From a virus, in IMG/VR virus record IMGVR_UViG_3300033984_000293, positions 92,627 through 156,626 of that record: a DNA stretch of 64,000 nt. One strand, written 5' to 3'. Position 1 is the first letter of the stretch. Each line of letters opens with the position of its first letter. The position numbers were made by a program, and so were the translations under genes. Shown piece by piece: positions 1,184-59,954 of the stretch. Below the pieces are notes generated by a model. It searched no databases and had not been told where the DNA came from. It saw only the letters and a program-made list of their open reading frames with translations.

Positions 1184-2800
1184 TTAATTAGACATTGCTT
1201 TATCTCTAATTTCATCATGAGCGTTATCTAACTTATCAGATAACCCATTTAATAATGGACATAATATTTTTGTGATATTACTTTCAAGTTTATTTAAAAA
1301 GTCATTATCGTTTACATAATCAAAAATGTTGTCTCTTACCATATCGTATAGACCACCATTCAAATCAGCATCTTTTTTTAATTTCCCAGCACTTCCATCA
1401 ACAATTGATTTTGAAATTGTTTTTGTCAAATAACTACAATCAAGTAATTTTTCAATATCACTAACTTTAATATCATCAAGTGAATTAATTATTAATTTAC
1501 TCATCCATCCATCAGAGTGTAATGGTGTTAATTTAGAAACTAACCATTCACCCATATATTCTTTAAATGTGTCAAAAATTGAATCGTAATCACCCTTGTC
1601 AAAAAACCCTTTTAACGTTTCAAAAAATTGTTCTTGGATAATATGTTTACTAAAATTTTGAGAATTTAAATAAATAGATTCTGTCAATATATCGTTAAAC
1701 AATCTTTTTTGTTGAGGTTTGGTTTTTAAATATAAAGTCTCTACTATAATAGACGTTCTACCTTTAACAATTTTAGATTCCGCAGAATATGTTCTTAATT
1801 TTTCAGTTTTAACTTTTGTTAAATTTTCCTTAATTAAAGATTTAATTTTTAAATCAGTAGATTCGTTAAGACCAATAATGTATGGACTAGGTGCTTTAAG
1901 ATATTTGGTTTTACCCGCTAAAATTCTAAATACTTGTCTTTTATCAATTTTTTTATTTAAGAATCCGTAAGGAGACAATTTACTCTTAACTTCAGCAGTT
2001 TCATCTTCTCTAAAACCATCAAAACTATCAAACTGTCCTGAACCATCACATTTAACTAATTGTTGTTTAAACTCTCTTAATTGAGGGATTGGTGTTGTTT
2101 CAACTCTCGCATTATATTGTAATGCTGCTCCAAGATATTGACCTAATATTGTTCTACAACCTTCAGCATCTAATTTGATACCTCCGGCAGCTCCCGCTTG
2201 TAAATCTTTAGTTTTACCTTTTGGTAAATAAAGAATTATGTTTTTCCAACCTTTATCTCTATCCAAAGCCGGTACTTGAGTAAATTGTGTTGTTAAAACA
2301 TCGCTATCCGGTAACACTTTATCTTCAATATTGGTTAATAATTTAGCCTTTGGATAATCCTTAGATAACAATTCATTCCATTGTTTAAAAATGTTTGACA
2401 CAGCTTCTTTATCAACATAAGTTTGTAAGTTAGCTGTTACATTATCCAATGTTTTTAATAAAGTCACCTCATCCAATTTTGGGTCAATATTAAATGATGT
2501 TAATAAAGGACTTGTTGAATATGATAATGCGTCACATGCCCATTTTTTTTTATTTTTAGTCACCATATTCTGCACAGTCATATCAGCAAAGAATACAACA
2601 TTCTCACCTTTACTATTTTGACCATACCAAATATCTTGATTATTTAATTTTCCTGGCTTACCATTCTTTAACCATTTAGGAAAACAACCCGATTTAAAGG
2701 CGTTTTGGAATAATAATTGTTCGTTAGTTTGAACTGGTCTAGCCTGTAATTGTTCTTTTATTGTATTTTTCATAATTGGTTGTTTTTTATACTTCTTCAT
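1184..2800 (-). CDS. Large hypothetical protein, possible virion protein
   Basis: A 538-residue protein I do not recognise. An in-frame ATG at 2773 would give an N-terminus 'MKNTIKEQLQ...TNEQ' resembling the tags of its neighbours; the longer start overlaps the upstream gene by 14 bp. Early on it has an aromatic 'PKWLKNGKPGKLNNQDIWYG' segment, and the two genes upstream have loosely similar 'YPNW' segments. The second half is helical and carries internal (I/L)xE sites ('ILTESI', 'IIQEQF'). It is last in a five-gene minus-strand run with late-type promoters, so a structural or injected role is inferred. Confidence 0.7.
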   Translation of the reverse strand: MKKYKKQPIMKNTIKEQLQARPVQTNEQLLFQNAFKSGCFPKWLKNGKPGKLNNQDIWYGQNSKGENVVFFADMTVQNMVTKNKKKWACDALSYSTSPLLTSFNIDPKLDEVTLLKTLDNVTANLQTYVDKEAVSNIFKQWNELLSKDYPKAKLLTNIEDKVLPDSDVLTTQFTQVPALDRDKGWKNIILYLPKGKTKDLQAGAAGGIKLDAEGCRTILGQYLGAALQYNARVETTPIPQLREFKQQLVKCDGSGQFDSFDGFREDETAEVKSKLSPYGFLNKKIDKRQVFRILAGKTKYLKAPSPYIIGLNESTDLKIKSLIKENLTKVKTEKLRTYSAESKIVKGRTSIIVETLYLKTKPQQKRLFNDILTESIYLNSQNFSKHIIQEQFFETLKGFFDKGDYDSIFDTFKEYMGEWLVSKLTPLHSDGWMSKLIINSLDDIKVSDIEKLLDCSYLTKTISKSIVDGSAGKLKKDADLNGGLYDMVRDNIFDYVNDNDFLNKLESNITKILCPLLNGLSDKLDNAHDEIRDKAMSN

Positions 2801-3590
2801 CGTCTGATATGGTACTTTGAATTTGTCCTTGTACCTGTGTATTAGAATCTGTTATTCCATCATTTTGTTGTTTAGGAGTTTCACCTCCTTGAACACCAGG
2901 TAATGTTTTAGGTAGATTTTGTGCGTCTTTAAGTTTTTGAGCAAAAAATTCTTTATATTTTTCAGCATTATCTGTCGGTGGAGTTGAGTTTTGTGGTGTT
3001 GTTGGTTCTACCGGTGTATCACCCTTCGGATTTTTATCAAACAACGCTTTTATAGAATCAATACCTTTTTGAGCTTTAGCTTCAACCCAATTTGGATATT
3101 TAGTTGCGAATTTACCACCCGACTTACCTTTAAAATAATATTTTCCGTTTTCTAATTTGTAATCATAAGATTTATCATTTTTAGTAATTAAAACCGATGT
3201 TGGTGGTGTCGTTCCTGCTGCCGGTGGCGTTGTTCCTGCTGCCGGTGGTGTAGTCCCTGATGCTGTAGTCCCTGCTGCTGTAGTTGTTCCTGCTGCCGGT
3301 GGTGTTGTTCCTGCTGATGTAGTCCCTGCTGCTGTAGTTGTTCCTGCTGCCGGTGGTGTTGTTCCTGCTACAGCCGCTTGTGCGTTTTTCAACATATCAG
3401 CCGGAGATGTTGGGGTATACTTAATACCAGCGTCTTGAGCCGAACCTGTATTAGATGTGAAATTAAATTTTTTATCACCAACAGTTTGTTCAACAATGTT
3501 TTCAGATAAAGTCTTTTTAGGGTCGTAATTAAATAAAAGAGCCGCTTTTTGTAGCTCTTCAGAAATTAAATTATTTATATTATTTTTCAT
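2787..3590 (-). CDS. Tagged protein with Gly-Thr-Pro-Ala linker
   Basis: 267 residues. The N-terminus ('LISEELQKAALLFNYDPKKTLSENIVEQ') is a variant of the tag ending in xEQ. Residues 75-130 are an AGTTPPA repeat linker, encoded by near-identical DNA units. A small domain follows with 'YDYKLENGKYYFKGK' and 'KYPNWVEAKAQKG'; the tail is Pro/Gln-rich. Linker plus small domain suits a flexible virion or packaged protein. No family recognised. Confidence 0.75.
   Translation of the reverse strand: MKNNINNLISEELQKAALLFNYDPKKTLSENIVEQTVGDKKFNFTSNTGSAQDAGIKYTPTSPADMLKNAQAAVAGTTPPAAGTTTAAGTTSAGTTPPAAGTTTAAGTTASGTTPPAAGTTPPAAGTTPPTSVLITKNDKSYDYKLENGKYYFKGKSGGKFATKYPNWVEAKAQKGIDSIKALFDKNPKGDTPVEPTTPQNSTPPTDNAEKYKEFFAQKLKDAQNLPKTLPGVQGGETPKQQNDGITDSNTQVQGQIQSTISDDEEV
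3205..3372 (-). repeat. Coding minisatellite (AGTTPPA units)
   Basis: Repeated blocks of about 21-24 bases encode alternating GTTPPA, GTTTAA and GTTSA peptides in the linker of the 2787-3590 gene. Several units are identical at DNA level, as expected of recent slippage expansion. Confidence 0.8.
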
Positions 3591-8512: not shown

Positions 8513-8800
8513 ATGAGATATAAAATAAATGAATTAGTTTGTGTTAGAGGTACAAACACACCTAAAAAAATTACAGAATTTGAAAATATTTGTGGTACAG
8601 GGATTTATTATATGTCAGATAATACTTCATATTCTGAAGAACAAATTCTAATCGGTTATACGGATTATATTGATTTAAGTAATAAATGTGAATCTATTAT
8701 AGAGGAAAAAAAAGATGTTATAGTAAATTTGATTGACTATAAAAAATACGCCAAGAATTGGGCGAAGGTTATTTCAGAAACAGAAAATAGGGATAAATAA
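8513..8800 (+). CDS. Small SH3-like protein
   Basis: 95 residues. The first half ('YKINELVCVRG...KKITEF...GIYYMSDNTSYSEEQI') has the spacing of a small SH3/KOW-like beta barrel, similar to the small proteins at 17165 and 33951. The C-terminal half is helical. Driven by a host-like promoter, so probably expressed early. It ends 2 bp before the convergent 8802 gene. Function unknown. Confidence 0.65.
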   Translation: MRYKINELVCVRGTNTPKKITEFENICGTGIYYMSDNTSYSEEQILIGYTDYIDLSNKCESIIEEKKDVIVNLIDYKKYAKNWAKVISETENRDK

Positions 8801-8801
8801 T

Positions 8802-9053
8802 TTAAGGAACAGGATTCGCATGACCTCTTGTAAGTCCTGTCCCCCACTTTTCACCGGCAACACCTAACATATTTGCAGGACCTCTAGTTAATCCGGTCTC
8901 CCATTTTCTACCAGTATTTGTTGCAGTTCCACCACCACCGGCAGCTGCGGGTGCGGCATCAGGGGTTTCTTCTTGTTCACCAAGTTCTTCGTTTGAATTA
9001 CTTGTTGTGTATCGTTTCATTAAACTAATTATGTGGTCAATATCTGTTCTCAT
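8802..9053 (-). CDS. Small tagged Gly/Ala-rich protein
   Basis: 83 residues from the ATG at 9053, chosen over an upstream start because a TATTTAT box sits just before it. The N-terminus (DHIISLMKRY ... ELGEQEE) fits the longer tag class ending xEQ. The rest is an Ala/Gly linker and two copies of 'KW.TGLTRG.AN'. Likely a small virion or packaged protein; unrecognised. Confidence 0.65.
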   Translation of the reverse strand: MRTDIDHIISLMKRYTTSNSNEELGEQEETPDAAPAAAGGGGTATNTGRKWETGLTRGPANMLGVAGEKWGTGLTRGHANPVP

Positions 9054-20262: not shown

Positions 20263-22131
20263 TTATTCAGGTTTAACTTCTTCAAACTCTACATCTGAAG
20301 CGTTTATATCTGATTCCGGTGTCTCACTCTCATTTACACTATTGTATAATTCCTGTGTGATGGTTTGGAACTTTTGAGTAAGTTCTTCCATAATCGTTTT
20401 AACATTTTCCACATCTTTATTAGAATGAGATTCTTTCAAAGTATCAAGAATAGTTGTTATTTCTGTTTTTTGTTCTTCAGAAATCTTATCCTCTAAATCC
20501 GTTAAAGATTTACCTGTTTGGAATATCAGGTTGTCAGCAGAGTTTAATGTATCCACATCTTCTTTAACTTTTTTGTCCGCTTCAGCATTTTCTTCAGCTT
20601 CAGCCTTCATTCTTTCAATGTCTTCTTGAGATAGTCCCGTTGAACCCTCAATTCTAATTGATTGTGTTTTGTTTGTTGCTTTGTCAACCGCAGATACGTT
20701 GATGATACCATTCGCATCAATATCAAAGATAACCTCAATCTGAGGAACACCTCTCATCGATGGTGGTAAACCATCTAAATGGAATCTTCCCATCGTTCTG
20801 TTGTCTTTCGCCATTGGTCTCTCCCCTTGTAAGACGTGAATCTCCACAGAAGGTTGATTATCAACAGCCGTTGAGAAAACTTGTGACTTTTTGGTTGGGA
20901 TTGTGGTATTTGATTCAATAAGTCGAGTTAAAATCCCACCCATCGTTTCAATACCTAATGAAAGTGGTGTTACGTCTAATAACAACACGTCTTTCACATC
21001 ACCAGCCAATACACCCCCTTGAATAGCCGCTCCTAACGCAACTACTTCATCCGGATTAACACCTTTTGATGGTTCTTTACCAAAGAACTTCTTAACCGCC
21101 TCTTGTATTGCTGGGATTCTTGTTGTTCCACCAACAAGGATAACCTCATCAATATCGGAAATCTTAAGTTTCGCGTTTTTCAATGCCGTTTTACAAGGGT
21201 CAATCGTTCTTTTGATTAAATCAGTAGCAAGTTGTTCAAACTTAGCTCTTGATAAAGTTTTAACCAAGTGTTTTGGTCCGGTCGCATCAGCACTTAAATA
21301 AGGTAAGTTGATTTCTGTCTGAGGAGATGAAGATAATTCAACCTTCGCTTTCTCAGCACCTTCTCTTAACCTTTGTAATGCCATTGCGTCTTTTGAGATG
21401 TCTATACCACCATTATCGTTCTTAAATTCTTCAACCAAGTAATCGATAATGACTCTGTCAAAGTCGTCCCCTCCTAAGTGAGTGTCTCCATCGGTAGATA
21501 ATACCTCAAACACACCTCCACCTAAGTCAAGAATAGACACGTCGTGAGTTCCCCCTCCGCAGTCAAACACAACAATTTTACTATCACCCTTTTTGTCAAG
21601 ACCGTACGCAAGAGCCGCCGCGGTTGGTTCGTTGATAATACGACGAACATTTAATCCGGCAATTTCACCCGCCTCTTTTGTAGCCTGACGTTGGGCGTCG
21701 TTAAAGTAAGCTGGAACGGTGATTACCGCATCAGTTACTGATTCACCCAAATAATCTTCAGCAGTTTGTTTCATCTTTTGTAAGATGATTGCCGATAATT
21801 CTTGTGGTGAGTATTTTCTATCATCAATTTGAACTCTTGGTTGTGAGTTTTCATTTACAACTGAGTAAGGAACTTTTCCAATTTCGTTTTTACTCTCGTT
21901 ATAGGTGGAACCCATAAATCGTTTAATTGATGATATTGTTTTAGTCGGATTGGTTACCGCCTGTCTTTTTGCCGGGTCACCAACTTTTCTTTCTCCTTCG
22001 TTGATGAAACCGATGATTGAAGGTGTTGTTCTTTTACCTTCTGAATTTGCTATTACAACAGGTTCGTTCCCCTCCATTACAGAGACACACGAGTTTGTTG
22101 TTCCTAAGTCAATTCCAATAATTTTTCCCAT
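20263..22131 (-). CDS. dnaK: Chaperone DnaK (Hsp70)
   Basis: 622 residues, full-length bacterial Hsp70. The ATPase domain has '[16 protein letters not shown]' (residues 6-21), '[20 protein letters not shown]', '[20 protein letters not shown]', a '[17 protein letters not shown]' phosphate loop and '[13 protein letters not shown]'. The peptide-binding domain starts about residue 385 ('[17 protein letters not shown]'); the helical lid ends in '[10 protein letters not shown]', close to the usual FEEVK tail. It folds proteins in the cytoplasm with DnaJ and GrpE, neither of which is in the window, so host co-chaperones are probably used. The sequence resembles Bacteroidota DnaK, suggesting acquisition from a host. 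Has its own promoter and terminator. Unusual in phages. Confidence 0.97.
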
Positions 22132-22263: not shown

Positions 22264-22722
22264 TTACATTCTTTCTTTTATGTCGTCCAACATACTCTCA
22301 TCAAATTCTACTCCGTGTCTCTCTTGGAAGTGGTCCAATAATGTCCGAACTGATTCATAATAACCTTTATCTTGTAATAATAGGTAAGCTCCTAAATCGG
22401 CTTCCAGTTCATCTTTCTCGTCTCTTGGTCCATCGTGACCTAATAATACGTGGGTAACCTCGTGAGCTTCAATAAATTTCAATATACTTTTAGCGTCCGG
22501 TTGTCCCGTCAATATCTCACCATCAATAATGATTAAATTCTTACCAGGAACCATAAATCCAAAACCATATTCTTCAAAGTATCCTTTAACTTGTTCGTAT
22601 AATGGGTCTTCCTCAAATACCACAACAACCGTAACACCATCTAAAAATTCGCTGGTGTATTCCAATTGAGTATTTTCGTTAATTAATTTTTTATATTGAG
22701 ATTCTGTAATTATTAATTTCAT
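22264..22722 (-). CDS. Tagged ImmA/IrrE-like zinc metallopeptidase
   Basis: 152 residues from the ATG at 22722, 4 bases after the upstream stop codon; the longer start overlaps the neighbour. The tag is 'MKLIITESQYKKLINEN'. The zinc site 'FIEAHEVTHVLLGH' (H87, E88, H91) is followed by 'ELEADLGAYLL', the HExxH...ExxA(D/N) arrangement of the ImmA/IrrE (M78, DUF955) family, whose members cleave repressors or regulators. A packaging tag on such an enzyme suggests it acts in the host right after injection; that is inference. Last gene of a three-gene tagged operon. Confidence 0.72.
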   Translation of the reverse strand: MKLIITESQYKKLINENTQLEYTSEFLDGVTVVVVFEEDPLYEQVKGYFEEYGFGFMVPGKNLIIIDGEILTGQPDAKSILKFIEAHEVTHVLLGHDGPRDEKDELEADLGAYLLLQDKGYYESVRTLLDHFQERHGVEFDESMLDDIKERM

Positions 22723-22726
22723 ATTT

Positions 22727-23887
22727 TCACCATTTATAATTACTTTCCTCACCGTGCATAGTCACAAAGTCAGACAATGTAAGGTTTAATTTTGGAAATT
22801 TTTTATTAATCATATTAATAAATAATTCATTACTTATTTTACCCATACCAGGATAGTAATTAATATTATTTGGTCTAAAAATTTTTCCTAATGACCCAAA
22901 TATTATTATAAGGTCATTTTCTAATCCAATTAAAAATTTTTTATTATACTCATCAATATTTGATATAAACCATTTACGTCCTTTCTCTAATTTATCATCT
23001 AATGTTATGTTATTAACAATATCAGTTAAAACATATTTAATACCTTTTATTGTATTTTTTTCATCATCTGTTATCTCTAAACCTAATTTTTCTTTATAAT
23101 AAATTGGTATTAACTTTTCACTTAACCCTTTTTTTAGTAAAAATTTAGTTAAATTAATAAATAATTCACTTTCACTAATGTCGTCATCATTTTTATCCAT
23201 AAATTGAGTAGAATCATAATGAAATTGGTAAGGAGATTTTGGGTCTCCTAAATTATAAAAAACATAATAGGATGAACCTGGTGAGTTTTTAAGATATTCT
23301 TTAAAACTATCAAATCCCGCCATAGTGCAAATTGATACTATCTGCCCTTTATCTCTACCCGAACATTTACCAAGAATCTCCCGATACACATTCCAAGCTT
23401 CTTTACTATCCTTCACTTCCGGTGGAACTTGAAAAGATTGTAATCCATCGACCATCCCCAAATATTTAATACCAACAGACTCTAATTTTTGAATATCGTT
23501 TGTGCTAACTAAGTTTTTTTTATCAGAAATATCACCTTGTTCATTATCTTGTTGTTTTATTAAAATATCTTTTGACTTTCTTTCAAACTTATCAACATCT
23601 TGTAATGTTTTAATTTGACCTAAATCTTTAATAGGGTAGTGTTGTTTAAATTTTTCAAAAATATTAAAGTAATTTTTAAATTTATAAGCGTCCTCATATT
23701 TTATGAAACCGGAACTTAACATTTTTAACAACCATCCGACATAAAATGGTTTTTTTATATTATTAAGAATTTCATTAAACTGATTTTCAGGGATTAACTC
23801 TGAATCAACATATTTAACCCTTAACTCATCTTCTGAGTATTGCTCGGTAAGTATTCTATACTGCGTTTCTGTAATTATTAGTTTCAT
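22727..23887 (-). CDS. Tagged protein of unknown function
   Basis: 386 residues. The tag 'MKLIITETQYRILTEQY' ends in ILTEQ. Middle part has 'GIKYLGMVDGLQSFQVPPEV', 'SICTMAGF', and 'YYVFYNLGDPKSPYQFHYDS', a distinctive segment I believe recurs in phage proteins but cannot name. It overlaps the upstream gene by 4 bp (ATGA). Confidence 0.65.
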   Translation of the reverse strand: MKLIITETQYRILTEQYSEDELRVKYVDSELIPENQFNEILNNIKKPFYVGWLLKMLSSGFIKYEDAYKFKNYFNIFEKFKQHYPIKDLGQIKTLQDVDKFERKSKDILIKQQDNEQGDISDKKNLVSTNDIQKLESVGIKYLGMVDGLQSFQVPPEVKDSKEAWNVYREILGKCSGRDKGQIVSICTMAGFDSFKEYLKNSPGSSYYVFYNLGDPKSPYQFHYDSTQFMDKNDDDISESELFINLTKFLLKKGLSEKLIPIYYKEKLGLEITDDEKNTIKGIKYVLTDIVNNITLDDKLEKGRKWFISNIDEYNKKFLIGLENDLIIIFGSLGKIFRPNNINYYPGMGKISNELFINMINKKFPKLNLTLSDFVTMHGEESNYKW

Positions 23888-24123
23888 ATTTTATCAACCT
23901 TAGCTTTAAATTTAACGCCATTTGTTCTTAATATATAAACTAATCTATGATATTGAATTGAGTCCGTCAATGTTATTGAAAATGGCTCTATTACCTCAAT
24001 ATTAAAAACTTCTTTTTGTTGTTTGGTTCCCGTAATACCTTTTAACGCATTTAAGTTATCCTCATCCCAAAAGATACCCTCTTTAATTTTTTTCATCTGA
24101 GATTCTGTAATTATTAATTTCAT
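23884..24123 (-). CDS. Tagged small protein
   Basis: 79 residues with the tag 'MKLIITESQMKKIKEG', then a small beta domain ('FNIEVIEPFSITLTDSI'). TATTTAT stands exactly 4 bases before the ATG. First gene of the 24123-22264 tagged operon. Confidence 0.65.
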   Translation of the reverse strand: MKLIITESQMKKIKEGIFWDEDNLNALKGITGTKQQKEVFNIEVIEPFSITLTDSIQYHRLVYILRTNGVKFKAKVDKI

Positions 24124-26592: not shown

Positions 26593-27405
26593 CTACTTAT
26601 TTAATAAATCCCAAGCTCTTGCCAATCTTGTTAAACCAATACCAGCACCAAATCTTGGAAAGAAGTCCAAAGATAAGAATTCTTCCAATTCTTTTTCCAC
26701 TCTATCTTTTCCAAATAACTCAAATAACTTGGAAGAATACCCACCACCTTCGATTGAGTAGAACATCTCTCTCATTTTAACAACATCACAACTTCTCTCA
26801 GCAGAACCAATAGTTTCTTGACCAAAAAGGATTACGTCAACCTTATTGAAGATGTTGTCTGAATCGTGTTTCATATTCCAAAATGGGTTTGTTCTAATTG
26901 GAAAGTTTTGTAATGATATAACCTCACTTTTTTCTTTCCACATTCTTGATTCGTGTTCATCTTCTAAAATAGAAACATCTCCATATTCTTTACAAACTTG
27001 TTCGTAATCTACGGGAACTGGTTCTGAGAAACCTAAATATTGTAATAATTCACGTTCTAATACAAGTAAATGAAGCATACCACCCTTTGATTCAAATTCA
27101 AACATTGGAAAGATTAACTCGTGACGACCCGGAATTGGATTTTTCTCTTCTCTATATGATGTTGAAATACAGAACACTCCATCCCACTCAGGATTCTTCA
27201 ATAATTCCAATTCTAACCACATTTGTCCTGTTTGTGGTAATGGCCAAATTTCACCCCCATATTCAAAGGTTTTTACTGAATGTGGGTTTTCACAAGCAGC
27301 TAAAATAGATAATCTTGATTGAGTTGGGACCTCAATAAAATTCTTACTAACGAAGAATGTTCTTAATTTTTGTACCAGTTCGTGGTAAGTTTTTGTGTTT
27401 TTCAT
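26593..27405 (-). CDS. Class II aminoacyl-tRNA synthetase-like catalytic core
   Basis: 270 residues. Motif 2 is visible as 'VFCISTSYREEKNPIPGRHE' leading into 'FPMFEFES', and motif 3 as 'FGAGIGLTRLARAW' at the C-terminus; 'GSAERSCDV' matches the Asp/Asn-type active-site loop. There is no anticodon-binding domain, so it is a stand-alone class IIb core like asparagine synthetase A or its relatives. It probably activates an amino acid, perhaps Asp/Asn. The product and any tRNA partner are unknown. Flanked by a TATTTAT box on one side and a hairpin upstream. Confidence 0.78.
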   Translation of the reverse strand: MKNTKTYHELVQKLRTFFVSKNFIEVPTQSRLSILAACENPHSVKTFEYGGEIWPLPQTGQMWLELELLKNPEWDGVFCISTSYREEKNPIPGRHELIFPMFEFESKGGMLHLLVLERELLQYLGFSEPVPVDYEQVCKEYGDVSILEDEHESRMWKEKSEVISLQNFPIRTNPFWNMKHDSDNIFNKVDVILFGQETIGSAERSCDVVKMREMFYSIEGGGYSSKLFELFGKDRVEKELEEFLSLDFFPRFGAGIGLTRLARAWDLLNK

Positions 27406-31568: not shown

Positions 31569-31994
31569 ATGAAAAAAATTCAAACAGGTGATACAGTAAA
31601 AGTACACTACACAGGGAAATTAGAAGATGGGTCTATTTTTGATACGTCATTAGCTGAAGGTCGTGAGCCGATTGAAGTAACTTTAGGTCAGGGACAATTA
31701 ATTCCGGGATTTGAAGCTGGGTTAATTGACATGAGTGAAGGTGAGAAAAAAACAGTTGAGATTGAATCTGCGGACGCTTATGGTGACCCAAGACCTGAAA
31801 TGATTAATGAAGTACCTAAAGCTAATGTTCCTGAAGGAGTACAATCTGGAGAAATGTTACAAGGTATGGGACCACAAGGACCAGTTAATGTAAAGGTGGT
31901 ATCTGTAACTGAAGAAACTGTTACATTAGATGCTAATCACCCATTAGCAGGTAAAAAATTAATTTTTGATTTAGAAATTGTTAGTATCTCTTAA
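31569..31994 (+). CDS. FKBP-type peptidyl-prolyl isomerase (SlyD-like)
   Basis: 141 residues. FKBP core: 'VKVHYTGKLEDGSIFDTS', 'PIEVTLGQGQLIPGFE', then an insert-in-flap region ('SADAYGDPRPEMINEVPK') and 'LDANHPLAGKKLIFDLEI' at the end, the SlyD/FKBP layout. It speeds up proline isomerisation and acts as a chaperone in the cytoplasm. The His-rich metal tail of SlyD is missing. With DnaK and ClpP it forms a phage protein-quality set. Confidence 0.93.
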   Translation: MKKIQTGDTVKVHYTGKLEDGSIFDTSLAEGREPIEVTLGQGQLIPGFEAGLIDMSEGEKKTVEIESADAYGDPRPEMINEVPKANVPEGVQSGEMLQGMGPQGPVNVKVVSVTEETVTLDANHPLAGKKLIFDLEIVSIS

Positions 31995-37384: not shown

Positions 37385-37547
37385 TTGTGTGTTTTATTAT
37401 TAATCTGTTTATTTTTCCTATTTTATTAAAACTATCCGCCCATTCTGCGTGGGTCTTTGGCTCACCAAAAACATCCAAATATATTTCTTTGGACAAAGAT
37501 AAGGTTTTAGAATAAGATTTCCAATTACTTTCTAATTTTTTATCCAT
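37365..37547 (-). CDS. Small hypothetical protein
   Basis: 60 residues from the ATG at 37547, which overlaps the stop of the repeat protein in the form ATGGATAA. Longer in-frame starts would read back into the repeat array. Sequence 'MDKKLESNWKSYSKTLSLSK' then 'FGEPKTHAEWADSFNKIG'. Not recognised. Confidence 0.55.
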   Translation of the reverse strand: MDKKLESNWKSYSKTLSLSKEIYLDVFGEPKTHAEWADSFNKIGKINRLIIKHTNGEIRE

Positions 37548-38274
37548 TTGTGTGTAAATCATAGTGTTCCTCCACCTGTTCTTGTATACGCCAACCAAAC
37601 TCCTGTATTGATGTTACACCCATTTTGTAGTGTTCCTCCACCTTAAATGGTAAATCATATTTAAAAAATAGTGTTGATGTTACCCCCACTTTGTAGTGTT
37701 CCTCCACCGTGTGGTTCCAACATTTCCTGGATTCAATGGTTGTTGTTACCCCCACTTTGTAATGTTCCTCCACCCCATTGATATAACCATACATACTGCC
37801 TGAAGTTGATATTACCCCCACTTTGTAGTGTTCCTCCACCTCCAAAGAAGCTTCTTTAATAAGTAATTCTGTTGATGTTACCCCCACTTTGTAGTGTTCC
37901 TCCACCCAATGGAGATTGTGGTCCGCCTTGGCAATAGTTGATGTTACCCCCACTTTGTAGTGTTCCTCCACCCTTGGGGTAAGATAGTTGTTCTCAACCA
38001 ACGTTGATGTTACCCCCACTTTGTAGTGTTCCTCCACCCATATCTTTGTGATGTCCTTAATTTGTTGGTTAGACATACTAAAATAGGATTCAAAAAACTT
38101 CCATATTTCTCTATAACTCACATAAACATACCCATTTTTTTTATTGTGTTGCAAGATACATCTCCCATCTTTCATATGAAAGATATAATCAGGGTATTCT
38201 TTCATAATGAATGGTTCCATAGGGTTAAAATTCGCATTCAACCACTTGATACAAAGTTTTTCTAATTTAGTCAT
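37540..38274 (-). CDS. Repeat protein: N-terminal domain plus 12+10 residue array
   Basis: 244 residues from the ATG at 38274, 7 bp inside the neighbouring gene; a longer frame to 38415 would run through that gene. Residues 1-78 are a small domain ('LEKLCIKWLNANF', 'CILQHNKKNGYVYVSYREIW', 'FFESYFSMSNQQIKDITKIW'). The rest is seven units of a constant 'VEEHYKVGVTST' (12 residues) plus 10 variable residues, ending with a decayed eighth. The variable parts (e.g. LVENNYLTPR, IAKADHNLHW, SGSMYGYING) show no similarity to each other. Period is exactly 22 codons. A diverged homologue lies at 50093. Function unknown; a scaffold displaying variable peptides is one reading. Confidence 0.75.
   Translation of the reverse strand: MTKLEKLCIKWLNANFNPMEPFIMKEYPDYIFHMKDGRCILQHNKKNGYVYVSYREIWKFFESYFSMSNQQIKDITKIWVEEHYKVGVTSTLVENNYLTPRVEEHYKVGVTSTIAKADHNLHWVEEHYKVGVTSTELLIKEASLEVEEHYKVGVISTSGSMYGYINGVEEHYKVGVTTTIESRKCWNHTVEEHYKVGVTSTLFFKYDLPFKVEEHYKMGVTSIQEFGWRIQEQVEEHYDLHTNG
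37562..38038 (-). repeat. 66-bp tandem array: 36 bp constant, 30 bp unique
   Basis: Constant 36-bp segments sit at 38003-38038, 37937-37972, 37871-37906, 37805-37840, 37739-37774, 37673-37708 and 37607-37642, with a partial copy at 37562-37576. The intervals are exactly 30 bp each and unrelated to each other. Copies are identical or differ at 1-3 positions. The copy nearest the gene's 3' end and its truncated neighbour are the most degenerate. Confidence 0.95.
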
Positions 38275-38458
38275 TACTCTCTTTATAAATTTTATAATCA
38301 AAATACCAGGGACTTTGTTCCCCCTCATTTTCGTTTTTAACAATTTCTTCGGCAGCAGCCTTAGCCTCCTCGTAACTATAATACGATTCCATAAATTGAC
38401 GAAAATCCACATCAATAAATGGTTCCCGGTGACTATTTCACCAAACTATAATATACAT
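38267..38458 (-). pseudogene. Small gene interrupted by an in-frame TGA
   Basis: From an ATG at 38458, coupled to the upstream stop codon, the frame reads 'MYIIVW', then TGA (38438-38440), then continues open to 38267. After the stop, 'NSHREPFIDVDFRQFMESYY' and 'YSYEEAKAAAEEIVKNENEG' follow, the same layout as the intact 36076 protein. Translation could still start at the ATG at 38392 (41 residues). Either a real nonsense mutation or a sequencing error. Confidence 0.5.
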
Positions 38459-41202: not shown

Positions 41203-41427
41203 ATGGGAAAACCAAGTTCAAAAGGAAAGTATGTTGTTAAAGCGAATCTTTACGACATTTATGTATTAGCAACGTCAAGACCGGACACAACAAAAAAACA
41301 CGGGTATTCAATGGGTTTTGATTTCCGAATCTATAAAAATGGAAAACTTGTTGAGAAAGGATTAAAATCTAAAGATGCTGCCGTTGCCAAAGCATTAACA
41401 TTAGTTCCAAAAAAACAAAAAGCATAA
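41203..41427 (+). CDS. Small basic protein
   Basis: 74 residues from the ATG at 41203, downstream of the promoter. 'KYVVKANLYDIYVLATSRPD' and 'FRIYKNGKLVEKGLKSKDAA' form a small beta/alpha unit with Lys-rich ends. Its stop overlaps the clpP start by one base. Not recognised. Confidence 0.62.
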   Translation: MGKPSSKGKYVVKANLYDIYVLATSRPDTTKKHGYSMGFDFRIYKNGKLVEKGLKSKDAAVAKALTLVPKKQKA

Positions 41428-42161
41428 TGAATTACGGAAGAGAGTTTCAAAAGTTCGCAATGAGCGAAAGAGGGGTTTCAAGTCTTAACTTAGATTACTA
41501 CCAAAAACATATTGAGAGTGTTACCCCATATATCTTGGAAGAAAGAGAGATGAGAGCAACTCAACTTGATATCTTTTCTCGACTTATGATGGACCGAATT
41601 ATTTGGGTTTCAGGACCGGTTGAGAGTCAGATGGCATCTATTATCCAAGCACAACTTATCTTCTTGGAAACGACCGATAAAAAGGATATCAGTATGTATC
41701 TTGACACACCGGGAGGTTCCGTATTGTCAGGTCTTGGAATCCGAGATACTATGAACTACATCAAACCGGATGTTGCAACATTAAATGTTGGAATGTGTGC
41801 GTCTATGGGTTCTGTGTTAGTATCTTCAGGAACAAAAGGAAAAAGAAGTTCATTAATCTTCTCAAAGATTATGACACATATGGTGTCTCACGGAACACAA
41901 GGAAATGTTCAGGACACTCGTATTAACCAATTCGAGGCAGAGAAATATAACTATATGTTATTCAAAATCTTGGCAGAGAACTGCGGGAAAACATTTGATG
42001 AGATGTATGAGTCATCAAGAAATGACAAATGGTTCAACTCGGATGAGGCAAAATCATTTGGTTTAATTGACAACATCGTTGGATTAGAGACAAACAAATC
42101 TATGACAGAAATGATGGTTGGGTTTGATGAGTTCTACACTAAAGAAATCTTAAAACGATAA
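41427..42161 (+). CDS. clpP: ClpP-like serine protease
   Basis: 244 residues. The catalytic triad is in place: Ser126 in 'GMCASMGS', His151 in 'MTHMVSHG', Asp200 in 'SSRNDKW', with the ClpP spacings of 25 and 49. N-terminal 'VTPYILEEREMRATQLDIFS' and 'SIIQAQLIFLETTDKKDISM' match Bacteroidota ClpP. It degrades proteins with a Clp ATPase, or alone as a phage protease; no ClpX/ClpA is in the window. Could also serve as a prohead protease, as ClpP-like folds do in lambdoid phages. Confidence 0.93.
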   Translation: MNYGREFQKFAMSERGVSSLNLDYYQKHIESVTPYILEEREMRATQLDIFSRLMMDRIIWVSGPVESQMASIIQAQLIFLETTDKKDISMYLDTPGGSVLSGLGIRDTMNYIKPDVATLNVGMCASMGSVLVSSGTKGKRSSLIFSKIMTHMVSHGTQGNVQDTRINQFEAEKYNYMLFKILAENCGKTFDEMYESSRNDKWFNSDEAKSFGLIDNIVGLETNKSMTEMMVGFDEFYTKEILKR

Positions 42162-47830: not shown

Positions 47831-48202
47831 TTACCAAGTTCTGCAAGCCCAATATTTAGCTTTCCATCTTGGTCCCGGATTATCACAATTCATTCTTGCT
47901 CTAAAAGATTTTCTTCTAGCAGGATTATTTTTCTTAATGACCATTCGTTTTCCTTTTGCAGATTTTCCACCAAAACCAAAGTTAACCTTAACAACATTTC
48001 CTTTGTCGTTCTTAACATAAACTTTGAATTTCTTAATATCTCCTTGCATAATTTTACCAAGTTGAACTTTACGTCCCTGATATTCCGCCTCAGTCAACAA
48101 ATCACCAACAACAAAGTTGGTCTCCTCAACTGAACCATAAAAACTATCATCTAATTCATTGAATAGTCTATTGTATTGTGATTCTGTAATTATTATTTTC
48201 AT
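47831..48202 (-). CDS. Tagged basic protein with Cys-rich C-terminal tail
   Basis: 123 residues. The tag is 'MKIIITESQYNRLFNELD'. The basic C-terminus 'RRKSFRARMNCDNPGPRWKA' then 'KYWACRTW' is a motif type I associate with phage proteins. Probably packaged; the basic tail could bind DNA. Confidence 0.68.
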   Translation of the reverse strand: MKIIITESQYNRLFNELDDSFYGSVEETNFVVGDLLTEAEYQGRKVQLGKIMQGDIKKFKVYVKNDKGNVVKVNFGFGGKSAKGKRMVIKKNNPARRKSFRARMNCDNPGPRWKAKYWACRTW

Positions 48203-49038
48203 TTTTTATAACTTGTCATTGTCGGTTTATTTCCTGTTCCCACTTTTGGGTCTTTCTTTTCTGCTCTTCTCTTTTGTTGAGTCATCGCTTTCTTCTCATC
48301 CTTATCATACGATGAAGCCACCTTAGGTGTTTCAGATGAAACCTTTTTTGATGGACGACATTTTGGATATGACTTACCATCAGCATCCTTTCTTCCACAA
48401 GGTGGATGTTTCCCGTCAACTTTTTTGCTTACATCAACCCACTTTTCCTTAAACCAATTACGCAAATCTTCATTAACATTTTCGTTCTTTGGTTTAATTC
48501 CTTTTTTCTTCATGTTGATTGCAATTGCTGCTTGTTGTGCCGGACTTGAAGCTTCATTAGTTTCCTCAGATTCGTTAGCCGATTTTTTAACTGTTCTCCA
48601 TCCACCACCTTTTGATTTATATCGTTTGGCTGCAGCACCATTACAATATGCACTCGGACAAACTTTATATTTTGACCTTGCCCAAGCCAAACTTCGAGAC
48701 CATAACTCAGGATTGGTTGGTTTATTCTTACCTTCGGTTAACTGATTATCACCGGAACAATGTTTATCAAAATAATTATAAATTAGTTCTTTAAATTCAT
48801 TTTCAAGTAGTTCTAAAAAATCATCTTTATCCATACCATCAAAATCATTAATGTCCGTAAAATAATCTTCAGCGTTGTATTTAACACCTTCCATAAAATG
48901 CTCATCATTGTCATAATCACAAACATACATACCATCCATTAAGTTGTATAGGAAATTTTCAATTCTATGTATTCTTCTTCTAATTGAAGAATCCATCTCC
49001 AATAACTTGTATTGTCTTTCTGTAATTATAACTTTCAT
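48199..49038 (-). CDS. Tagged protein with DUF5872-like region
   Basis: 279 residues. Tag 'MKVIITERQYKLLEMDSSIR'. Residues about 10-95 are an acidic helical domain related to the 53904 protein ('IRRRIHRIENFLYNL'). Then 'LWSRSLAWARSKYKVCPSAY' and 'GGGWRTVKK', followed by 'DGKSYPKCRPSKKV': the DUF5872-like patterns found in phages and giant viruses. The tail is very basic. TATTTAT is 4 bases upstream. Likely a packaged DNA-associated protein (inference). Confidence 0.7.
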   Translation of the reverse strand: MKVIITERQYKLLEMDSSIRRRIHRIENFLYNLMDGMYVCDYDNDEHFMEGVKYNAEDYFTDINDFDGMDKDDFLELLENEFKELIYNYFDKHCSGDNQLTEGKNKPTNPELWSRSLAWARSKYKVCPSAYCNGAAAKRYKSKGGGWRTVKKSANESEETNEASSPAQQAAIAINMKKKGIKPKNENVNEDLRNWFKEKWVDVSKKVDGKHPPCGRKDADGKSYPKCRPSKKVSSETPKVASSYDKDEKKAMTQQKRRAEKKDPKVGTGNKPTMTSYKK

Positions 49039-50092: not shown

Positions 50093-51499
50093 ATGAAAAA
50101 TGCAATTAATTTATTAATGGAAAAGTGGATTAAAGGTGTGGATACATATACCCACAATGGTTCTACTTGGTTAATATTTACCGATTCCAAAAAATGGGTA
50201 ATTGAACTAACCGATTCTAAAACCCTATGGTATAACTACAACTTCTTCAAACAAATATTTGATTTCACTTCGTTGGATGTTGTGGAGAATCAATCATACA
50301 TCACCAAATGGGTGGAAGATAATATTATCAATGGGGTAAACCATACCGGAGCACCTGATTGGAATAGAGATAAGGTTGCCAAATATGCAATTGAAAATGG
50401 TGTGAAGAACACCAAACAATCACATATAGATAACCGAATCCAAGAACGTGTTGAAGGTACCATTGAAAATGGGGTAAAGAAAACCAATTATAAATCTCTA
50501 GTGACAAGAGGTAATATTGAAGACATCATTGATGGCGGGGTTAAGGAAACTATTAGTACACTACGACGTACTCTTCTTGGGGTTGACGATATCATTCAAA
50601 ATGGAATAAAAGAAACCCGTTTGGAAATGAACATTACTGAAGGAGAAGTTGATGACATCATTCAAGATGGGGTGAAACACACCTTTGGTGATAAGTGGCA
50701 TAAGCATAATTTTGTTGAAGACATAATTCAAAATGGTGTAAGAGATACACAGAGTAACCCGTATGAAAATACAAGTTGGATTGAAGGTGTTATTAAAAAA
50801 GGTGTAAAACTTACCGGACGCATTCATAAAGATTATACTGAAGTTGTTGAATACCTTATTGAAAATGGTGTGAGGAAAACCTATCACGACACAGATAACT
50901 ATACTGACGATGTGAAAGAAGTCATTAGAGAAGGTGTGAAAGAAACAAAGGAGATGTTGGATTGGGTTTGTACCGACCGAATGTTATCTAATGTTCTTGA
51001 AAATGGTGTGAGAACTTCCCACCCACGTGCATATGTAGATGAAAAAATGATTGATAAGGTGATTGATAAGGGTGTAATAGAAACCCACGATGATGTATAT
51101 CACCACAAAGGAAGAATTGATGGTGTGATTAAGAATGGTATTAAAGAAACGTTGAAAGCATCATATCTTAATGTTGATGATGTAATTCAAGATGGTGTTA
51201 AAGAAACAAAAACACCCGGTGATTGTGACCTTGTATCAACCATTGAATGGATGAATGAAAATAATACCAGTAATGTTCCCATAATGATTGATGATGTTAT
51301 TGAGAATGGTGTTAAAGAAACTGTGGCAGCCGGATGTGTTGACAAAAAGACGGGTATTTTTCATTATCGGATTCAAGAACAAGTTGATGATGTTGTTGAC
51401 AATGGTGAAAAAGTTAACGGAACTTACGCTGGCGGTCAACGTCAAAGTGAAAAATGTAAATCCGTTGTTGAATATGGAACAAAAAACCCCACCGATTAG
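50093..51499 (+). CDS. Repeat protein: N-terminal domain plus diverged 12+10 residue array
   Basis: 468 residues. The N-terminal 75 residues ('INLLMEKWIKGVDTYTHNGS', 'SLDVVENQSYITKWVEDNII') parallel those of the 37540 protein. About 15 units follow of a constant 12 (consensus VDDIIQNGVKET) plus 10 variable residues (e.g. ISTLRRTLLG, FGDKWHKHNF, QSNPYENTSW); four late units have spacers of 12, 7, 26 and 20. Constant units vary mostly at synonymous sites, so the protein sequence is under selection. Both repeat proteins end their array with a 'RIQEQV' join. Host-like promoter suggests early expression. Function unknown. Confidence 0.8.
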   Translation: MKNAINLLMEKWIKGVDTYTHNGSTWLIFTDSKKWVIELTDSKTLWYNYNFFKQIFDFTSLDVVENQSYITKWVEDNIINGVNHTGAPDWNRDKVAKYAIENGVKNTKQSHIDNRIQERVEGTIENGVKKTNYKSLVTRGNIEDIIDGGVKETISTLRRTLLGVDDIIQNGIKETRLEMNITEGEVDDIIQDGVKHTFGDKWHKHNFVEDIIQNGVRDTQSNPYENTSWIEGVIKKGVKLTGRIHKDYTEVVEYLIENGVRKTYHDTDNYTDDVKEVIREGVKETKEMLDWVCTDRMLSNVLENGVRTSHPRAYVDEKMIDKVIDKGVIETHDDVYHHKGRIDGVIKNGIKETLKASYLNVDDVIQDGVKETKTPGDCDLVSTIEWMNENNTSNVPIMIDDVIENGVKETVAAGCVDKKTGIFHYRIQEQVDDVVDNGEKVNGTYAGGQRQSEKCKSVVEYGTKNPTD

Positions 51500-53903: not shown

Positions 53904-54221
53904 TTACACACATTCCTTATCGTAAATACCTTGTAGATAATCGGCAAAATTATCTACCATAAAATAATACAAAGTATCTTTGGTTTTAGAATCAATCTTT
54001 CCGCCGTTTTCATAATAGTAATCATCAATTAAATCCAATACCAGCATATCACACATTTCACCAATAAAATCACCCAAACTTCCATAATCACAAGGATTAT
54101 AATTCTGTATAACAAAATCTAAATGACCTTTAATTTCGTCATAATTAAACCTTCTACGAAGTGATGCCGGGATATTCTCCATTAACAAGTTATGCTGTCT
54201 TTCAGTGATTATAATTTTCAT
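53904..54221 (-). CDS. Tagged small protein
   Basis: 105 residues. Tag 'MKIIITERQHNLLMENIPAS'. The body 'LRRRFNYDEIKGHLDFVIQN' is related to the first domain of the 48199 protein. Overlaps the upstream tagged gene by 4 bp. Function unknown. Confidence 0.68.
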   Translation of the reverse strand: MKIIITERQHNLLMENIPASLRRRFNYDEIKGHLDFVIQNYNPCDYGSLGDFIGEMCDMLVLDLIDDYYYENGGKIDSKTKDTLYYFMVDNFADYLQGIYDKECV

Positions 54222-54580
54222 TCCTCAACAAATTCCTCAATTAATTTATTCAAACTTATTCCCAACATATCAAGACCAAGTATTTTTAAAAAATTATTTT
54301 CGCTAATTTTACGATTGTGAGATTCACTTAAAACTAAGGTACCATATTCTTTACCTTGAGGGTGAAGATAATAATTATTTCCATTAACCTTAAACAAATA
54401 CATTGGACCATAATTATTAAGTAACCACCTAAACTCATCTCTACCATCAGTAAACAAGTTTTGACCTTTAGGACCTAATTCAATCCAATTTGTAATTATT
54501 TCAATATTGTCGGATAAGTTATAACCCAATATATTATTGATTAACCCTTTTAATCTGTTTTCTGTTATTATTATTTTCAT
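54218..54580 (-). CDS. Tagged protein, paralogue of 59580
   Basis: 120 residues from the ATG at 54580. Tag 'MKIIITENRLKGLINNILGY'. The rest ('NLSDNIEIITNWIELGPKGQ', 'RWLLNNYGPMYLFKVNGNNY', 'LGLDMLGISLNKLIEEFVEE') aligns along its whole length with the 59580 protein. Part of a five-gene tagged operon (55656-53904). Confidence 0.7.
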   Translation of the reverse strand: MKIIITENRLKGLINNILGYNLSDNIEIITNWIELGPKGQNLFTDGRDEFRWLLNNYGPMYLFKVNGNNYYLHPQGKEYGTLVLSESHNRKISENNFLKILGLDMLGISLNKLIEEFVEE

Positions 54581-54921
54581 AATTCTTCCTCCACTCTTTT
54601 CCACCACCAGGGGTTATCGTCTCTCGCCGAAACATTATTTGAATGTAAACCATATTCCTCCAATAACCATTTTTTTAATATTGTTTGAACATCAGAAAAA
54701 TCTAATCCAAATATTTTGGTTAACCCACTCCATATATTAAACACATCAACATACACATTAGTGTTTGTTAAATGATAGTCAATCATTACCTTACCGTCTT
54801 TAACATAGAAAAGACGAGTTGGGTTGGATTCGCTTGTAACCGAAGGTAACCCTCCAAATTTATCGGTCAACCATTTTAGGACCAATCTATGTAATCTATC
54901 TTCAGTAATTATCATTCTCAT
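54577..54921 (-). CDS. Tagged protein with KKWLLEEYG motif
   Basis: 114 residues. Tag 'MRMIITEDRLHRLVLKWLTD'. Then 'MIDYHLTNTNVYVDVFNIWS' and 'DVQTILKKWLLEEYGLHSNN', the same domain order as the N-terminal domain of the 37540 repeat protein, where the matching segment leads into the array. Function unknown. Confidence 0.7.
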   Translation of the reverse strand: MRMIITEDRLHRLVLKWLTDKFGGLPSVTSESNPTRLFYVKDGKVMIDYHLTNTNVYVDVFNIWSGLTKIFGLDFSDVQTILKKWLLEEYGLHSNNVSARDDNPWWWKRVEEEL

Positions 54922-59262: not shown

Positions 59263-59290
59263 AAAAACCCCACAATCAAGTGGGGGTTAA
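59263..59290 (-). terminator. Rho-independent terminator
   Basis: AACCCCAC / GTGGGGGTT stem with T-run on the minus strand, overlapping the 59287 stop codon. Confidence 0.8.
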
Positions 59291-59577
59291 TAAAGTTCCT
59301 GGTAATTACGATAATAATCAATCCTATTACCAAAATTTTTTCTAATTAAATCAGTTACATAAACTTTCTGTCCTAATGTTAAATCCTGTCTATCCGTTAA
59401 GTCGGAAATAACACGACGAACAACCTCATCAAAATAATCATCACGATAATAAAATCTGGATACAATTGTAGGTTCACCCATAGAAACCAAATACTTGTCA
59501 ACAAGTTTTCTGATAAGGTCAATTCTTCTCTTAAACCATATGTTATTAAATTGATTCTCTGTAATTATTATTTTCAT
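59287..59577 (-). CDS. Tagged small protein
   Basis: 96 residues. Tag 'MKIIITENQFNNIWFKRRID'. Body is basic and helical ('VRRVISDLTDRQDLTLGQKV'). It follows the 59580 gene by 2 bp. Function unknown. Confidence 0.66.
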   Translation of the reverse strand: MKIIITENQFNNIWFKRRIDLIRKLVDKYLVSMGEPTIVSRFYYRDDYFDEVVRRVISDLTDRQDLTLGQKVYVTDLIRKNFGNRIDYYRNYQELY

Positions 59578-59579
59578 AT

Positions 59580-59954
59580 CTATTCTTCTTTTACAAAATT
59601 ATCAATAATAGTGCTAAGAGGAATTCCAAACATATCAATACCCATATAAGATAATAGTCGATGTTCATCAATACGTTCAACATATTCGGGTTTATAACCA
59701 CCTTCATAAATAAACCATTCACGACCTTCACGTTGTTGAGCCAACCACTTGCCATTTCCGGGTGTCTTAATCCAAAACATAGGTCCCCAATGATTTAATA
59801 GTGTATTAAATTCTCCTTTACTCTCAAACATACGACGTATAAGAACATTAGCTTCCCAATAATTTGTAATCATTTCAATCGTATCCGACAAGTCATACCC
59901 CAATGTGTTGTTGACCATATTCATCAACTTACTTTCTGCAATAATAATTCTCAT
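59580..59954 (-). CDS. Tagged protein, paralogue of 54218
   Basis: 124 residues. Tag 'MRIIIAESKLMNMVNNTLGY', then 'DLSDTIEMITNYWEANVLIR', 'FNTLLNHWGPMFWIKTPGNG' and 'MGIDMFGIPLSTIIDNFVKE', aligning with 54218 over the full length. TATTTAT lies 4 bases upstream. Confidence 0.7.
   Translation of the reverse strand: MRIIIAESKLMNMVNNTLGYDLSDTIEMITNYWEANVLIRRMFESKGEFNTLLNHWGPMFWIKTPGNGKWLAQQREGREWFIYEGGYKPEYVERIDEHRLLSYMGIDMFGIPLSTIIDNFVKEE

Follow-up and report, generated by a model that had tools for sequence, protein, structure and literature searches.

The 64,000-nucleotide window analyzed here (bases 92,627 to 156,626 of the 156.6-kb virus record IMGVR_UViG_3300033984_000293) carries an open reading frame (ORF), complement(37540..38274), in which a conserved domain runs into an array of 36-bp repeats alternating with unrelated 30-bp segments. 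The same locus is present, identical, in a 318-kb IMG/VR contig. On balance we think it probable, though by no means firm, that this ORF and its relatives are hypervariable modular protein genes, in which cassettes are exchanged, a domain serves as carrier, and the array presents a repertoire of peptides. It looks like an undescribed way to keep a stock of variable peptides. In two phage gene families, the last 12 codons (36 bp) of a small conserved domain recur, alternating with unrelated stretches of about 30 bp, to give an open frame of 2 to about 30 units of 12 constant and about 10 variable residues. Selection on the protein keeps the frame and the older peptides, and crossover inside the 36-bp repeat adds, removes, and exchanges whole cassettes among phages. 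Most new segments lie close to the domain, and the oldest cassettes, which several arrays have in common, lie toward the C terminus. The domain would be a carrier and the array a flexible chain displaying many short, essentially unconstrained peptides. At the level of the population, the result may be a repertoire of decapeptides, reshuffled among phages, that bind or inhibit varying host or competitor molecules.

The ORF, which with its relatives we call family 1, has 244 codons. A domain of about 80 residues ending in DITKIW is followed by seven units, each a 36-bp repeat (VEEHYKVGVTST) plus an unrelated 30-bp segment, and by a truncated eighth repeat that includes the stop. The repeats, 36 nt each, start on the minus strand at 38037, 37971, 37905, 37839, 37773, 37707, and 37641, exactly 30 nt follow every one of them (segments 38001-37972 to 37605-37576), and the reading frame is open across the entire array. 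The seven repeats and seven segments inside an ORF were the core of the original prediction, made from this sequence alone; they are confirmed, and the partial eighth copy is an addition. The copy nearest the 3' end had been called the most degenerate, and it is indeed copies seven and eight that have changed most. The start codon is the ATG at 38274 (MTKLEK..., kept in relatives) and not the mechanical TTG at 38415. Because G is the last base of all segments of this array, the repeat is better given at the DNA level as G+35 (GGTGGAGGAACACTACAAAGTGGGGGTAACATCAAC). The features of the locus are the following.

37540..38274, minus strand: family-1 array ORF, with domain, seven full 36+30-nt units, and truncated repeat 8; has relatives
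38038..38274, minus strand: conserved N-terminal domain, 79 codons, MTKLEK...DITKIW, from alignments; ratio of nonsynonymous to synonymous polymorphism (pN/pS) 0.20
38002..38037, minus strand: repeat 1, VEEHYKVGVTST, forming the C terminus of the domain where homologues lack an array
37972..38001, minus strand: variable segment 1, LVENNYLTPR
37936..37971, minus strand: repeat 2
37906..37935, minus strand: variable segment 2, IAKADHNLHW, matched in IMG/VR by its own array only
37870..37905, minus strand: repeat 3
37840..37869, minus strand: variable segment 3, ELLIKEASLE
37804..37839, minus strand: repeat 4
37774..37803, minus strand: variable segment 4, SGSMYGYING
37738..37773, minus strand: repeat 5
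37708..37737, minus strand: variable segment 5, IESRKCWNHT
37672..37707, minus strand: repeat 6
37642..37671, minus strand: variable segment 6, LFFKYDLPFK
37606..37641, minus strand: repeat 7, degenerate, VEEHYKMGVTSI
37576..37605, minus strand: variable segment 7, QEFGWRIQEQ
37540..37575, minus strand: repeat 8, truncated and degenerate, contains the stop codon
37365..37547, minus strand: next gene, MDKKLESNWK...; its start ATG overlaps the 3' end of the array ORF
54577..54921, minus strand: single-domain, array-less homologue of the family-1 domain

The overlap between the ATG of the next gene and the end of the array ORF recurs in locus L016, with a similar arrangement in L013, which suggests that the whole family-1 array is translated. 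The nearby homologue of the domain, already mentioned in the original prediction, matches with an E-value of 3.7e-11. In family-1 homologues that are array-less or have a single repeat, the domain ends, at its C terminus, with the repeat, and the single-repeat homologues are the likely starting point of the arrays.

Our family-1 set consists of eleven IMG/VR loci (the window's own array, as present in the 318-kb contig, is among them, and four are near-identical to each other) together with L256. The domains of these relatives are 86 to 92% identical to that of the window, and the repeats, in 2 to 7 units, are near-constant within one phage. The segments, however, are almost wholly different, the opposite of what was expected of a static repeat protein whose segments change only by point mutation. 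The segments that do recur are those at the far end (QEFGWR..., ...QFYSEKDVEELY); of the segments of the family-1 array of the window, only segment 7 has relatives elsewhere, in L014 and L017 (90% identical) and also in L012. Change is not instantaneous, since four near-identical contigs from different samples (L008 to L011) have an identical array. L014 and L017, mostly 93 to 99% identical over their aligned stretches, are one unit apart, beside the domain, and a deletion by crossover fits this difference as well as a gain does. All segments of the relatives together contain no stop in 341 codons, against about 26 expected from base-shuffled segments (minimum 14 in 500 shuffles), which excludes chance as the cause of the open frame. 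No family-1 relative was found among cultured phages, where family-2 (see below) matches were only tape-measure-like and at chance level, and the GTDB genomes yielded no bacterial or prophage copies of the arrays. In four related contigs, a box, TANNTTTG, which we take to be a promoter-like box of Bacteroidota, is found 2 to 3 times as often upstream of ORFs as in tiles of the genome. This enrichment points to a Bacteroidota host, and the large phages carrying the arrays are probably phages of such hosts.

A second and larger family on the same plan, omitted from the original prediction, is represented in the same window.

50093..51499, plus strand: family-2 array ORF, 468 aa, with N-domain (50093-50311) and 16 scored 12-residue repeats, VDDIIQNGVKET-like

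Between its repeats lie 7 to 12 (mostly 10) or 20 to 26 variable residues, and it has more units and more divergent repeats than the family-1 array. Relatives of this ORF, together with DNA matches to the core repeat in at least 120 stretches, gave at least 185 array tracts and at least 110 distinct ORFs, with two family-2 arrays in some single loci (e.g., L171, L200, and L205). The 109 arrays analyzed carry 489 segment clusters, of which 286 were found once.

Judged from the sequences, the product is under selection at the protein level, and the frame and the older peptides are thereby kept. In a DNA-level scan that imposed no frame, 1,024 of about 1,320 family-2 gaps were exactly 30 nt long and all were multiples of three. 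None of the 381 distinct family-2 segments of 9 to 12 aa contains a stop, and no repeat lies beyond the ORF stop in the 110 array ORFs. Drifted repeats retain [VI][ED]Dx-I-x-N-G-V-K-E-T, with codon use near-genomic at most positions. The pN/pS is 0.38 to 0.60 for repeats and 0.36 for segments common to several arrays, the latter from clusters built by peptide similarity, which lowers pN. The multiples of three, the lack of stops, the conservation of peptide rather than codons, and the pN/pS of 0.36 argue that the product is a protein and not a guide-RNA array.

Some relatives of family 1 behave differently, in that the array continues past the ORF stop or a frame shift with its repeats near-identical. 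Locus L264 (267-860) has five repeats, three of them identical, with segments of 31, 29, 30, and 30 nt. Segments of 29 nt occur in L263, L265, L269, and a further array in G008 and G011 (L111, about 8560-8955, minus strand, with its copy in G011), and segment lengths in these out-of-frame arrays range from 29 to 32 nt. When the sequences of L263 and L265 were read directly, the two repeats within a locus matched each other better than the other locus. In several of the ORFs in question, the last codons read the second repeat in a different frame, as ...WRN(I/V)T(N/I) and a stop. Because the frame is lost while the repeats stay near-identical, the copying acts on DNA, and an array can grow without coding. 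As growth does not require translation, selection is the best explanation for the frame kept in family 2 and the main clade of family 1.

The out-of-frame arrays also bear on the possibility that the locus is a guide-RNA array, similar to clustered regularly interspaced short palindromic repeats (CRISPRs), which doubles as an ORF, with segments that would match target nucleic acid and a transcript that would be processed at the repeats for a host or unknown effector. Near-identical repeats with 29- to 32-nt segments that persist out of frame are consistent with this, as are the 36+30-nt geometry, the unrelated segments, and the polarity of novelty described below. However, family 2 has gaps in multiples of three only and protein-level selection, and the folding of the repeat RNA is at most marginally better than that of shuffles (z of -0.1 to -1.8). 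Cas1 (PF01867) was found in none of 19 phage records, which were mostly partial, with a control that was positive in 10 of 14 known genomes. CRISPR arrays without cas genes exist, and thus the missing Cas1 alone is not decisive. The paired HEPN motif of Cas13 was not detected by motif search in the ORFs of >600 aa of the 318-kb contig, and Rfam yielded nothing meaningful for the array. The spacer search suggested by the original prediction produced no credible protospacer in related phages, INPHARED, or IMG/VR (three segments). We therefore disfavor a guide-RNA role, less so for the untranslated family-1 relatives, and for the arrays as a whole regard it as very unlikely.

What kind of protein would this be? 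The variable positions hold near-random residues everywhere (entropy 4.0 to 4.3 bits, against 4.21 overall). AlphaFold2 predicted the domain with a predicted local distance difference test score (pLDDT) of about 95 and the array with about 30 to 36, giving no confident model, and the array is probably without a fold of its own. A model of the window protein from 7 sequences (pLDDT 38) was useless. There was nothing above the cutoff in Pfam, only weak matches of unknown function in PHROG, no fold match in the PDB, and only uncultured phage proteins in BFVD; the protein falls into no structural repeat family of Pfam or the PDB. A leader-like domain, recognition-like constant parts, and hypervariable cores of near-fixed length in one ORF would suit a multicore peptide precursor, in which the 12-mers are processing sites and the 10-mers are released separately. 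The cores do not, however, have the biased composition of modified peptides (2.3% Cys), and no maturase was identified beside the array among neighbors read by eye only, so that we find this explanation barely credible.

Cassettes evidently move as wholes. Segments that recur with different neighbors on both sides were compared in 893 pairs and, at the nucleotide level, in 74 clusters. Codons 9 to 12 of the preceding repeat and codons 1 to 6 of the following one travel with the segment, whereas the outer repeat halves around shared segments are near background and the transition across the repeat is gradual. A site-specific enzyme would leave a sharp step; the half-repeats carried along and the gradual transition indicate homologous recombination within the 36 bp. 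By this comparison, phages acquire, drop, and trade entire cassettes through crossovers that fall inside the repeat. The identity of repeats between arrays is independent of domain divergence, which fits continued exchange or homogenization. The arrays are polar. From the N- to the C-terminal fifth, segments present in at least three arrays rise from 30% to 60% and exact 10-mers fall from 84% to 50%, with unique segments near the domain and shared ones at the far end (Mann-Whitney P = 5e-8). Changes occur in midarray too (L133, L135, and L193; L200, L218, L219, and L228). Duplication followed by drift was rejected as a source of new segments, with within-array duplicates in only 6 of 932 cases. 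The original prediction had proposed that 30-bp cassettes are inserted or replaced; the exchange of existing cassettes bears this out, while the process that gives birth to new ones is something we only infer.

Where could new segments come from? Copying from the phage's own genome was rejected, as no DNA or peptide match beyond chance was found outside the arrays in about 3 Mb of related phages, and so was a pool common to both families (5 weak matches, 3.9 expected). Neither INPHARED nor IMG/VR, the latter searched with three segments, held a credible source. The segments have a G+C content of 38 to 40% (38% for those found once), against 31 to 32% in the phages. In a six-frame codon model, those found once were assigned 39% in-frame, 27% to the other sense frames, and 34% antisense; they fit mixed coding frames better than shuffles do and worse than phage DNA. 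This fit suggests, although not conclusively, an outside or mixed origin. PIGKWNTSNV and VYAGPDQTFC (L229 and L190) presumably resemble sense-strand, in-frame fragments of surface-protein motifs of the BspA/DUF285 and PKD/CHU types, and if this likeness is true, it would point to capture from coding DNA. A peptide-level, heritable counterpart of CRISPR, in which 30-bp pieces of outside DNA are captured in-frame beside a carrier domain and traded through the repeats, and useful decapeptides are kept as a growing, polar memory, is a quite unlikely extension. Separately, perfect 10-bp inverted repeats occur in 3 of 179 unique segments, against 17 of 20,000 genomic 30-mers; the near-palindromic segments (VSTCKEYLQV, EVENFDFIKS, and YSDVIYHVSY, in L148, L163, and L208) may represent operators or terminators that were captured, or may have arisen by fold-back synthesis.

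The high G+C content of the segments, and the 30-nt length rule with a duplicated 36-nt repeat, would also be consistent with a phage repeat that mimics a host CRISPR repeat and into which Cas1-Cas2 of the host inserts 30-bp pieces that the phage tolerates or uses; in Bacteroidota, type VI-B CRISPRs likewise combine 36-nt repeats with spacers of about 30 nt. The reverse complements of the repeats are identical to Cas13b repeats at 21 to 22 of 36 positions (shuffle P values of 5e-5 and <5e-5, and of 0.006 to 0.013 when the ends are kept), but these Cas13b sequences were not found in the literature searched. The likeness is weak with the ends held, and the stem typical of Cas13b repeats is absent. 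Moreover, half-repeats traveling with segments speak for crossover and not for integration with duplication of a full repeat. We give such a product or decoy of host adaptation little credence.

The strongest rival is a neutral one, which we judge unlikely but by some way the most serious competitor: a tolerated, self-expanding tail, in which a recombination-prone repeat gains cassettes, stops and frameshifts are purged for the sake of the domain or the next gene, and the peptides have no job. It would account for arrays that grow untranslated in L264 and elsewhere, for homologues without an array, for the unconstrained segment positions and lack of a predicted fold, and for the overlap of the array end with the start of the next gene. 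It is harder to reconcile with family 2, where over 1,000 units are exact and in-frame, and with old segments that are conserved (pN/pS of 0.36) and recur in many phages. Several points weigh against a modular, peptide-presenting protein more generally. They include the repeats that continue out of frame in family-1 relatives and the growth without coding that these imply, the peptide-based clustering behind the segment pN/pS, and the lack of a source for new segments in the phages and databases searched. In addition, a unit number of 2 to about 30 across both families fits poorly with a fixed function, and the loci compared lie on contigs assembled from metagenomes, most of which are partial.

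Should the product be used, the arrays would show that a virus can maintain and trade, within a single gene, an extensive library of peptides that look random and have a fixed length. Such a library would be laid out, and polar, like a CRISPR array yet act as protein, perhaps in a novel kind of conflict between phage and host or between phages. The arrays also offer a testable case of the birth of coding sequence, with segments that later come under peptide-level selection. CRISPR finders may mistake such genes for arrays.

The window has other features of note. Eleven otherwise different ORFs open with M-K-(I/L/V)-I-I-T-E-(S/N/R)..., a start that is possibly a packaging or processing signal; the motif is also carried by the array-less homologues of the family-1 domain and is not present on the array proteins. 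Hsp70, an FKBP-type isomerase, and a Clp protease form an unusual chaperone set for a phage, and the PF00152 protein is possibly an asparagine or NAD-related ligase.

22264-24123, 32461, 47831-49038, 53904-54580, 55252, and 59287-59954: ORFs with the shared start motif
20263-22131, minus strand: Hsp70 (PF00012, E-value 2e-256)
31569-31994, plus strand: FKBP-type isomerase
41427-42161, plus strand: Clp protease
26593-27405, minus strand: class II tRNA-synthetase-like protein (PF00152, 270 aa) with no evident anticodon-binding part
2787-3590, minus strand: ORF containing a low-complexity GTTPPAAGTTTAAGTT repeat, with tandem copies at 3202-3369, different in kind from the cassette arrays

CRISPR arrays of types II and VI-B have 36-nt repeats and spacers of about 30 nt. 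The phage arrays share with CRISPRs these lengths, the near-identical direct repeats with unrelated segments of similar length, and novelty at one end with degeneration at the other, although changes in midarray also occur. The type II resemblance put forward in the original prediction thus holds for the geometry and fails for the rest, given the protein-level selection, the missing Cas1, and the lack of a credible protospacer in the searches run. A CRISPR array is noncoding, with spacer lengths free of codon phase, whereas the arrays of family 2 and of the main family-1 clade are in-frame in threes, and cassettes are exchanged by crossover within the repeat. Diversity-generating retroelements (DGRs) likewise diversify a segment of a protein, but they mutate residues from a template, whereas here whole cassettes are swapped. 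The 19 records, most of them partial, contained no reverse transcriptase (PF00078), which, as far as tested, places the arrays outside the DGRs; BLAST found no second copy of a segment in related phages, and no search aimed at a DGR template was made. The variable lymphocyte receptors of lampreys are repeat proteins assembled from cassettes. As in these receptors, variable modules are joined by recombination via shared flanks; the variable part in phages, however, keeps no structural residues, and its variation is heritable between phages. False-CRISPR elements are coding tandem repeats that resemble CRISPRs (e.g., sdrC) and are defined by the absence of spacer diversity and of cas genes (PMC5294841). 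The phage arrays are similar in having repeats within a protein gene and no cas1 found, and they lie outside this class in being extremely diverse (489 segment clusters in 109 arrays). The vrRNAs of VIPR, intergenic phage RNAs of 9 to 16 five-nucleotide YNNGG units with a suggested role in phage-phage conflict (PMC13142463), also alternate fixed and hypervariable parts in phage-borne tandem repeats; the unit here is 66 nt and coding, and the arrays do not belong to that group (the Vipr protein was not searched for). The literature searched, limited to open-license papers, contains no description of such a system.
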